NCBI RefSeq assembly: GCF_030347395.1
Contig: NZ_CP128170.1
Location: forward strand, 310,001-374,000
From: Microbacterium sp. ET2
Lineage (GTDB): Bacteria; Actinomycetota; Actinomycetes; Actinomycetales; Microbacteriaceae
Length of the DNA stretch: 64,000 nt
Direction of reading: 5' to 3'
Shown: positions 24,231 through 29,235 of the stretch, piece after piece
Layout of the letters: each line of letters begins with the position of its first letter
Numbering within the stretch: position 1 is the stretch's first letter
Program-made: the position numbers and the translations under genes
Notes under the pieces: generated by a model
Database searches by the model: none
Seen by the model: only the letters and a program-made list of their open reading frames with translations
What the model was told of the DNA's origin: nothing

Positions 24231-25058
24231 ATGGCCGCCGTGATGCCCCCCGATGATGTGAGGATTCCCACGTCGTTCCCCCGGGCCCGGACGTGGTGGG
24301 AGATCGGCATCGTGCTGGCCATCACGGTCGGTCAGAGCGCGGCCTACAGCGTCCTGGCCTTCGTCCGCTCGGTGATCCGCGCCCTCGAGGAGGAGCGTCG
24401 GATCTCCGACCAGCAGACGCAGCTGAACCCCTCGAGGGACGCCGCGGCCATCTGGGATCTCGTCTATCAGCTGCTCGACATCTTCTTCTCCCTGGCCCTC
24501 GTCGCCCTGGTGATCTACCTGCTGTGGGAACCCGGGAAGAGCGCCTTTGCCAGGATCGGCCTCGACTTCCGGCGATTCGGCGGCGATCTGGGTCGCGCCG
24601 TGCTGCTCGGCCTCGTGATCGGCGTCCCCGGCCTCGGCCTCTACATCCTCGGCCGTTCACTCGGCGTGACGGTGGCCGTGGTCGCCTCGCCGCTGGATGC
24701 CGCGTGGTACACCGTTCCCCTTCTGCTGCTTGCGGCCCTCCGCGCGGGTCTGACGGAAGAAGTCATCTTCCTCGGCTACCTCTTCGACCGCCTGCGGCGC
24801 GTCGGCTGGTCATGGTGGGCGATCATCCTCGCCACGGCCGGCCTTCGCGCGGCCTATCACGCGTATCAGGGCGTCGGCGCGATCATCGGGAACTTCGTCA
24901 TGGGCATCGTCTTCGGCTGGTGCTACCGCCGGTGGGGACGCGTGATGCCGCTGGTGATCACGCACACCCTCATCGACATCGTCGCGTTCGTCGGCTACCC
25001 GCTGGCCGTCGCCTTCTTCCCCGGCGTCTTCGCCCCCCTCCCCACCCCCACCCCGTGA
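24231..25058 (+). CDS. CPBP-family intramembrane metalloprotease
   Basis: 275 residues with about seven membrane helices. The CPBP (ABI) motifs are present: GLTEEVIFLGYLFDRL (the EE pair that binds the metal and activates water), a conserved His in AAYHAYQGVG, and VITHTLIDI. Members of this family cleave membrane substrates or support peptide maturation; no partner is evident nearby. A second ATG at 24243 could be the true start. The gene ends 28 bases before the first palindrome of the AbiEi cassette. Confidence 0.88.
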   Translation: MAAVMPPDDVRIPTSFPRARTWWEIGIVLAITVGQSAAYSVLAFVRSVIRALEEERRISDQQTQLNPSRDAAAIWDLVYQLLDIFFSLALVALVIYLLWEPGKSAFARIGLDFRRFGGDLGRAVLLGLVIGVPGLGLYILGRSLGVTVAVVASPLDAAWYTVPLLLLAALRAGLTEEVIFLGYLFDRLRRVGWSWWAIILATAGLRAAYHAYQGVGAIIGNFVMGIVFGWCYRRWGRVMPLVITHTLIDIVAFVGYPLAVAFFPGVFAPLPTPTP

Positions 25059-25085: not shown

Positions 25086-25152
25086 CGAGAGTGCATCTGG
25101 GCGCCGAGGATGCGGGGCGACCCCGCATTCTGGGCGCGCAGATGGATTCTCG
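25086..25152. repeat. 67-bp quasi-palindrome, left border of AbiEi cassette
   Basis: Two 32-base arms (25086-25117 and 25121-25152) around a three-base loop match at 27 of 32 positions. The outer arm is identical over all 32 bases to the reverse complement of the outer arm of the element at 26259-26290. As RNA it would form a long hairpin and could terminate the CPBP transcript. Confidence 0.85.
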
Positions 25153-25264
25153 GTGGCAGACGCCTGGTCGACGAGGCTCCTCCACAGGACGGCTTGAGCA
25201 CAAGTCATCCACAATCCGCCAAGACGACCGCACCGCTGCCCGACGACACGGTCAGGGTGAACGG

Positions 25265-26257
25265 ATGTTCACCTCTGCATCGACGCTCGGGATCGCTCCG
25301 AATCCGCTACCGCTCCTGAGGGCGCGGAGCGTTCCGCATCCCGAACGTGAGGTCGCGCGCGGCGCACTCGTTCGACTCCGAAGGGGCGTGTATGCGCCCG
25401 CAGAACGGTGGCGCGATCTCGCACCCTGGGACCGCTACCTGGCCCGCGTCCACGCGGTCAACCTCACGCATCCCGACACCGTGTTCAGTCACGAATCCGC
25501 CGCTGCACTCCTGGGCGGGCCGGTCTTCGGTGATCCCCAGGTCGTTCATGTCCTGGTCGGCCCTGCAGACACCTCGCGATTCGGCGGCGGCGTCCGCACC
25601 CACCGATCCGGCTCGGACCGCGACATCCTGGTGACCGACGGATTCGCGATCACGAGCCTGGCCGACACGGCGGTCGACCTCTCCCGATATCGGCACTCGT
25701 CGCTCGGGCTGGCGATGAGTGATTACGCGCTCCGATCCGACGCCGGCCTGAGCCGGGAGGAACTCCTCGGACGTAATGCGGAGCGGATCAGCGGCCGAGG
25801 GCGCGGGGCGGCTCGGTGGGCCCTTTCGCGGGCGACGCCCGTCGCCGAGACCGTCCTCGAATCGGTCAGTCGCGCCGTGATCGAGTGGCTCGGATTCCCC
25901 GATCCCGACCTACAGGTCGTCTTCCGCTCTGGTTCGGGTGTGGAAGATCGTGCGGACTTTCACTGGCCGACCCTCGGTGTCATCGGCGAAGCCGACGGCG
26001 ACGTCAAGTACGACGGTCGGTATGGAAACCCCGTCGAGATCTTCCGACGACAAGGTCATCGTGATCAGCGCCTCCTCGAGAGCATCGCGGCGACCGCGCA
26101 CTGGGGATGGAGCGACGTCGCTGCTGTCGCGCCACTTCGAGCGACTCTGCGCAGCGTCGGGCTTCGACCGATCGCATCGGAGAACACAGCCGAACTCGTC
26201 GCCGTCCGTCGCATCCTTTTTCGCGAGAATGCAACGGGGCGCCGAGAGAACGGGTGA
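25265..26257 (+). CDS. AbiEi-like antitoxin/PD-(D/E)xK nuclease-like protein
   Basis: 330 residues. The N-terminal part has an AbiEi-type winged-helix pattern (ARGALVRLRRGVYAPAERW, then FSHESAAALLGGP and VHVLVGPADTSR). The C-terminal domain looks like a PD-(D/E)xK or Vsr-like fold: Asp231 in ADFHWP, then Glu242, Asp244 and Lys248 in GEADGDVKY. Such fusions are abundant in Microbacteriaceae and are annotated as type IV antitoxin-domain or DUF559-like proteins; no AbiEii toxin is adjacent. The stop codon lies in the loop of the right-hand palindrome, so the last residues are encoded by the repeat. Confidence 0.75.
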   Translation: MFTSASTLGIAPNPLPLLRARSVPHPEREVARGALVRLRRGVYAPAERWRDLAPWDRYLARVHAVNLTHPDTVFSHESAAALLGGPVFGDPQVVHVLVGPADTSRFGGGVRTHRSGSDRDILVTDGFAITSLADTAVDLSRYRHSSLGLAMSDYALRSDAGLSREELLGRNAERISGRGRGAARWALSRATPVAETVLESVSRAVIEWLGFPDPDLQVVFRSGSGVEDRADFHWPTLGVIGEADGDVKYDGRYGNPVEIFRRQGHRDQRLLESIAATAHWGWSDVAAVAPLRATLRSVGLRPIASENTAELVAVRRILFRENATGRRENG

Positions 26258-26290
26258 ACCCCGCATCCTCGGCGCCCAGATGCACTCTCG
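26224..26290. repeat. 67-bp quasi-palindrome, right border of AbiEi cassette
   Basis: Arms 26224-26255 and 26259-26290 around a three-base loop match at 24 of 32 positions. The outer arm is an exact reverse complement of 25086-25117. The inner arm is coding (the last residues of the AbiEi-like protein) and more diverged. A hairpin here can also act as terminator for that gene. Confidence 0.85.

Positions 26291-26352: not shown

Positions 26353-29231
<2,879 letters not shown>

Positions 29232-29235
<4 letters not shown>

Follow-up and report, generated by a model that had tools for sequence, protein, structure and literature searches.

We examined a 64-kb window (the whole stretch of DNA analysed: contig NZ_CP128170.1, positions 310,001 to 374,000) of Microbacterium sp. 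ET2, and within it a gene for a 330-residue protein that lies alone between two 67-bp palindromes, P1 and P2 (Table 1). The genome that holds the window, termed G000 below, is 3.6 Mb in size. As a preliminary description of this DNA had stated, the outer arms of the palindromes (25086-25117 and 26259-26290) are exact reverse complements over 32 bp, lie 1.2 kb apart and enclose a single gene; one further base outward also matches. Both palindromes were confirmed by search with a covariance model, R1, built from 14 palindrome copies. The inner-arm match of 27/32 given for one end was reproduced, and that of 24/32 given for the other becomes 25/32 in the best register, in which both arm identities are counted here. 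P1 is intergenic and starts 25 bp past the stop codon of the CAAX-protease gene, and P2 overlaps the 3’ end of the bracketed gene, whose final 11 codons and stop codon are palindrome sequence. With at most 3 mismatches allowed, the 22-base arm pattern has 3 occurrences in the window and none in 100 dinucleotide shuffles. Apart from the outer-arm match, the window holds no exact 18-mers that recur inverted and separated within 3 kb.

Table 1. Features of the palindrome-bracketed locus, in window coordinates.
Feature	Position	Strand	Basis or remark
CAAX-protease gene (Rce1-like), left wall of the slot	24231..25058	+	Open reading frame; PF02517, 1.3e-18; upstream in 75/90 loci
Left 67-bp palindrome, P1	25084..25153	.	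Covariance model R1, 77.2 bits; arms 27/32; exact outer arm
TCCTCCACAG box	25178..25187	+	Just inside P1; read from the sequence
AbiEi-like + Vsr/EDxHD-like gene (predicted halves), 330 aa	25265..26257	+	Between P1 and P2
E199-to-K248 stretch, candidate catalytic residues E199, D231, E242, D244, K248	25859..26008	+	Invariance
Right 67-bp palindrome, P2	26222..26291	.	Covariance model R1, 82.3 bits; arms 25/32
Glycine dehydrogenase gene gcvP, right wall of the slot	26353..29235	-	Open reading frame; PF02347, 1.8e-179; downstream in 76/90 loci

The protein is modelled as an AbiEi-like DNA-binding half (approximately residues 14-191), for which an AbiEi-like profile or fold was recovered, joined to a Vsr/EDxHD-like nuclease half (approximately residues 195-302). 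The candidate catalytic residues are all invariant across 76 aligned sequences, and as a motif look by sequence more like PD-(D/E)XK than EDxHD. We could not find a convincing relative in a sequence search against solved structures (best E 0.095), nor a Y1_Tnp (PF01797) match in a Pfam search. Homologues currently carry the annotation ‘hypothetical protein’ or ‘type IV toxin-antitoxin system AbiEi family antitoxin’. We additionally noted that the third-position G+C content of the gene is below that of gcvP in 74/74 loci (mean 0.82 vs 0.94), and that the window gene is overlooked by a simple coding scorer.

We identified homologues of the protein (P0001; E <= 1e-60) in 121 of 366 Microbacterium genomes, and studied the surroundings of 90 of approximately 126 matches, consisting of 30 loci returned by the search and 60 that were fetched. 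Hairpins with a score of at least 14 and arms of at least 18 were found within 400 bp of the gene at 86 of these 90 loci, and on both sides at 52. Their density was 1.99 per kb near the gene (142 in 71,302 bases) and 0.024 per kb at a distance of 500-1,200 bp (3 in 123,200 bases), a local enrichment of about 80-fold, and none of 180 shuffled flanks contained such a hairpin. Where such palindromes had a GAGA- or GAAA-like edge, the edge-to-edge length was exactly 65 bases in 124 of 141. In 64 of the 67 loci with a left palindrome, this ended 88-212 bp before the matched gene start, and in most cases the downstream copy lay no farther than 80 bp from where the matched coding region ends.

The association was also recovered in a named set of the best 80 of 116 relatives, which shares many loci with the genus sample and includes more distant and cut-off ones. 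A palindrome (score at least 13) lay within 400 bp of the gene in 67/80, and at a score of at least 14 there were 97 palindromes in 61.5 kb near the gene, compared with 17 in 355 kb at 600-3,000 bp. In a Microbacteriaceae sample, 183 of 299 genomes matched the alignment at 1e-20, and the best-scoring 26 loci of other genera had a palindrome within 400 bp in 21 cases (score 13) or 20 (score 14). At distant homologues the palindromes bear no apparent relation to R1, with types such as GCATAAACGCG in M. testaceum strains, TTTTCTCC in M. indicum, TTCATTTCTGGCACATCTCC in Frigoribacterium sp. JB110 and M. halotolerans, and GAAACATAC in Humibacter albus. Many homologue matches outside Microbacterium show one internal stop, and may be either broken genes or matches that overrun the gene end.

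Site and protein vary together. The left and right palindromes of a locus share a mean of 81% identity, against 54% between loci, and a palindrome ranked its own partner first in 40 of 50 loci. Direct alignment of left and right was the better in 35/50 and inverted alignment in 15/50, the orientation being weakly defined because the palindromes are near-symmetric. Across the 74 of 90 loci with gcvP in the locus plus a palindrome, palindrome similarity correlated with protein similarity after the similarity of gcvP had been removed (0.39; 0/500 permutations as high), compared with a correlation of -0.04 between palindrome and gcvP once that of the protein had been removed. No single part of the protein stood out as the candidate determinant of palindrome specificity, the N-terminal, middle and C-terminal parts all contributing. 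In two close relatives, G231 and G240, gcvP is 96.8% identical, the protein 43.6% and the palindrome 42%. At the slot in G231 and G126 the neighbours match the window at 87-92% DNA identity, with a homologue 42-45% identical to the window protein and an unrelated palindrome; in this best case the allele changes as a whole, gene and palindrome together. We consider the association of the palindrome with the gene, and its co-variation with the protein, to be well shown.

Within the arms of 187 distinct palindromes, positions agree at a lag of 19 bp (0.571 vs 0.275 when shuffled), and thus the full palindrome tends to hold approximately four copies of a short motif; agreement was also raised at lags 27 (0.483) and 21 (0.357).

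The homologues mostly occupy a single slot, with both the CAAX-protease gene and gcvP as neighbours in 69 of the 90 genus loci; in the named set gcvP lies downstream in 43/80, the CAAX gene upstream in 47/80, and both flank the gene in 37/80. The content of this slot differs between genomes. G037 has a full homologue plus both palindromes; G003 has no palindrome and retains an open frame of 253 residues, which corresponds to the family's C-terminal half; and G053 has a palindrome and no recognisable homologue. The preliminary description had called for strains with a precise empty site: we identified one empty slot, in G118 (a 68% complete genome), where the neighbours lie 68 bp apart and are too diverged for the ends to be mapped to the base. 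The gene matched nothing in plasmid and phage collections at the limits used, nor did two palindrome patterns have an exact match in viral contigs.

The R1 search of the complete G000 genome identified 17 places (34 matches over two strands). The weakest place, at 2306301 (46 bits), is of another type by sequence. The remaining 16 copies overlap no gene called by a simple codon-position scorer, which misses some genes including that of the window, and are located at gene ends, some of them between convergent genes. Their arms have a mean identity of 25.8/32, and 8 of 496 arm pairs reach at least 31, the outer-arm pair of the window being counted as 31 because its register is shifted by one base. 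The preliminary description had read the exact outer match as pointing to selection or recent movement; it is instead the upper end of a continuous range of arm identities, and hence does not indicate recent movement. The orthologue in G051 is also flanked by a palindrome pair, spaced 1,184 bp apart as in the window. A conserved RNA structure was considered and rejected, as paired positions changed together across the 14 copies no more than in shuffles; since the arm changes are not compensatory beyond this level, a DNA site fits better. We found no Rfam family at the gathering score in the stretch searched.

Neighbouring R1 copies in G000 lie less than 1.6 kb apart in 3 cases, against 0.13 expected. 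One of these is the window pair, and the other two enclose genes unrelated to the window gene: in one case a flavin mononucleotide (FMN) reductase/flavodoxin-like gene with an HxlR regulator, and in the other a 459-aa gene, presumably for a pyridoxal-phosphate-dependent decarboxylase. G126 also has the FMN-reductase and HxlR genes, in a 2.2-kb stretch where the palindrome model matches nothing. As a side observation, G000, G240 and G126 carry this gene pair (G000 1953169-1954448; orthologous regions L316-L320), and none was found in the stretches fetched from G051, G248 and G231. The suggestion that the unit is a cassette that moves antitoxin-like genes around the genome is not borne out, given the single slot in most loci, these other pairs and their contents, the palindrome-free G126 genes and the lack of plasmid or phage matches. 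At an E cut-off of 0.01 the only other homologue in G000 is a paralogue of 39% identity at 2379341. We tried this paralogue as a negative control, and no palindrome was found there at a score of at least 15; at a score of at least 13, a weak pair brackets it (L399 3268-3334, 4429-4495), and it therefore counts for the association.

Eight G000 palindrome sites were located in five relatives (G051, G126, G231, G240 and G248) and searched with R1. In these 40 comparisons a copy was present in 27 and absent in 13. All five relatives have a copy at sites L030 and L024, and all except G231 at L022. At L031 there is a copy in G051 and G126 but not in G231, G240 or G248; L049 and L045 each have one in G051, G126 and G248 and none in G231 or G240; and at L028 one is present in G051 and G240 and absent from G126, G231 and G248 (the last with a 39-bit match approximately 1.7 kb away). 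Site L035 is filled in G126, G231 and, farther from the flank, G051, is empty in G248, and aligns to a partial remnant in G240. At L022 (G000 2302972), where G000 and the other four relatives have a full palindrome, G231 (L326) retains a ten-base remnant, CGCGAGAGCG, as if most of the palindrome were cut out. Insertion and deletion are indistinguishable from these comparisons, and no target duplication was found at the sites compared. The alternative raised in the preliminary description, that of REP-like elements (repetitive extragenic palindromes), is the one that stood: the family is dispersed and intergenic, varies in presence at orthologous sites and is strongly linked to AbiEi-like genes.

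Match counts were also compared at the genome level. For a generic pattern, CGAGAS-N55-STCTCG, which also gives background matches in coding sequence, the median count is 16 among the 121 gene carriers and 8 among the 245 non-carriers (Mann-Whitney p 4.5e-20), and R1 matches occur in 94/121 genomes with the gene and 46/245 without (odds ratio 15). We additionally compared dispersed copies with the palindrome of the resident gene at 32 places in G062, G065, G068 and G069, leaving out two G065 places beside the gene and dropping 11 of the 32 as not palindromic (2, 4, 5 and 0 in G062, G065, G068 and G069, respectively). The palindrome of the own gene ranked first for 8/8 dispersed copies in G062 and 6/6 in G069.

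In its layout this system works like the REPs and their REP-associated tyrosine transposases (RAYTs), although it is not a member of that group. In both, one chromosomal gene is flanked by palindromes that are also scattered between genes (here at the 17 places in G000, and as own-type copies in G062 and G069), the palindrome type belongs to the gene, and the gene mostly stays in place. The enzyme, in contrast, is unrelated, combining what are predicted to be AbiEi-like and Vsr/EDxHD-like folds, and a search for RAYTs (PF01797, Y1_Tnp) was negative in 18 of 18 palindrome-carrying genomes, the same search being positive in 5/14 control genomes. The palindrome is longer here (approximately 67 bp), and its left and right copies are not regularly inverted. 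Carriers have 2 to 65 generic matches per genome, background included, whereas REPs as a rule exceed 100 copies per genome, according to PMC2817692.

We propose, at a probability of about one half, that gene and site form a RAYT-like unit built around a different enzyme, in which the protein binds, cuts and copies the palindrome. The AbiEi-like half would bind the long palindrome, and the Vsr/EDxHD-like half would nick or cut DNA there; since the motif tends to occur twice in each arm, 19 bp apart, binding would probably involve a dimer or tetramer. Two copies of the site bracket the gene, and the activity of the enzyme may have copied the site into other intergenic places, as REPs are thought to be copied by RAYT transposases. 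The chromosomal gene stays in one slot at most of the genus loci studied, with alleles that diverge or exchange very fast and a palindrome that changes along with them. More tentatively, and somewhat short of an even chance, the family could be a selfish DNA found across the Microbacteriaceae, in which an AbiEi-Vsr-type endonuclease spreads its own palindromic site of approximately 65 bp and enzyme and site evolve as matched alleles that replace one another at a fixed slot; these pairs would possibly amount to hundreds of matched long-site DNA-binding specificities.

Several observations weigh against this proposal. Binding of the palindrome by the protein, cutting and transposition are inferred from sequence, not observed, and the absence of RNA-type covariation would be expected of a DNA site without proving that the palindrome is one. 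No palindrome was present at the thresholds used in 4/90 genus loci (L100, L112, L131 and L158) and 5/26 loci of other genera. The carrier statistics for the generic pattern and R1 ignore shared descent, and 13 genomes without a close homologue have at least 20 generic matches while 13 with one have at most 5. The palindrome of the own gene ranked first for just 1/4 dispersed copies in G065 and 0/3 in G068. Finally, the R1 family persists in the other-allele genomes G126 (28 strand matches) and G231 (16), with top scores of 86.5 and 83.8 bits, similar to those of gene carriers; dependence of the palindromes on the gene is therefore not visible, and no decay of orphan palindromes after allele change was seen in the bit scores of R1 matches.

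Two known systems with related parts differ from the locus. Compared with the EDxHD homing endonuclease I-Bth0305I and the Vsr endonuclease, there is no intron or intein, the gene leaves its target undisrupted and lies on a bacterial chromosome, an extra AbiEi-like half is predicted, and the active-site motif is not EDxHD by sequence; the locus does not match the usual concept of a homing endonuclease gene, since the palindrome sites, if they are the target, stay intact beside the gene. Compared with the type IV system AbiE, the neighbours are the CAAX-protease gene and, on the opposite strand, gcvP, without an AbiEii toxin gene; the putative nuclease half is an addition, and the palindromes also lie downstream and dispersed. 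As the slot holds no second gene, this is not a toxin-antitoxin pair.

The explanation that ranks next after the RAYT-like unit is autoregulation, which we consider unlikely. An AbiEi-type repressor would use the bracketing palindromes as operators, the dispersed copies would be extra or regulatory sites, and the nuclease half would serve another purpose. According to PMC3985639, AbiEi recognises long inverted repeats in its own promoter, and the position of the left palindrome upstream of the gene start agrees with this. Against autoregulation stand the downstream copy, the dispersed copies, which are found between unrelated genes and are missing from some orthologous sites, and the invariance of the candidate catalytic residues.

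We regard transposition of the whole palindrome-gene-palindrome unit, in the manner of an insertion sequence, as improbable. Single palindromes would then be scars left by recombination between the ends and loss of the gene. The unit is laid out as in insertion sequences, one slot is empty (G118), and 14/90 loci lack gcvP and so may lie elsewhere; against this, 69/90 loci share one slot, G000 has no second close copy of the gene, its one other homologue (E 0.01) being 39% identical, and the plasmid and phage collections gave no match. A role in defence, with the nuclease attacking foreign DNA, palindromes that mark self or hold the enzyme, and an arms race driving allele turnover, is also improbable: the fast divergence or exchange of alleles at one slot and the inclusion of AbiEi profiles in PADLOC would agree with it, but the viral contigs hold no exact match to the two palindrome patterns and the neighbours are housekeeping rather than defence genes. 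That the palindromes are strong hairpins of other origin, such as terminators, gathering at gene ends with the gene there by chance is very unlikely: their position at gene ends and in part between convergent genes would agree with it, but the approximately 80-fold enrichment, the gene-specific sequence and the co-variation with the protein speak against it.

If the RAYT-like proposal is correct, the locus would be a counterpart of the REP/RAYT system with an unrelated enzyme. That layout has so far been tied to one enzyme class (HUH, Y1), and a second would mean that gene-plus-palindrome units arise repeatedly and that their purpose becomes testable. The matched protein-palindrome pairs also offer naturally occurring data from which to learn how long DNA sites are read by a protein, and a gene now annotated as hypothetical or as an antitoxin would gain a testable role. 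A literature search found no paper on this gene-palindrome association; most subscription journals and all preprints lay outside it, and it is therefore weak evidence of absence from print.

We additionally noted short boxes upstream of the gene and further palindrome types in G000. A second box, TCCACA (25208-25213), lies 27 bp after the TCCTCCACAG box, both being between P1 and the gene, and is presumably similar to a DnaA box. In the survey of loci L020 and L097-L185, the sequence TCCT(C/G)CACAG was found 30-180 bp before the matched gene start in 36/90 loci, and in 0/88 at 600-750 bp. Elsewhere in G000, a palindrome pair of another type (1817887-1817963 and 1818844-1818919; L397 2688-2764, 3645-3720) has no AbiEi-like match and surrounds a gene that we take to encode a MerR-type regulator, whose open frame continues through one of the palindromes. 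Two further palindromes, of a third type, are located at 2306023-2306089 and 2306303-2306369, 280 bp apart.
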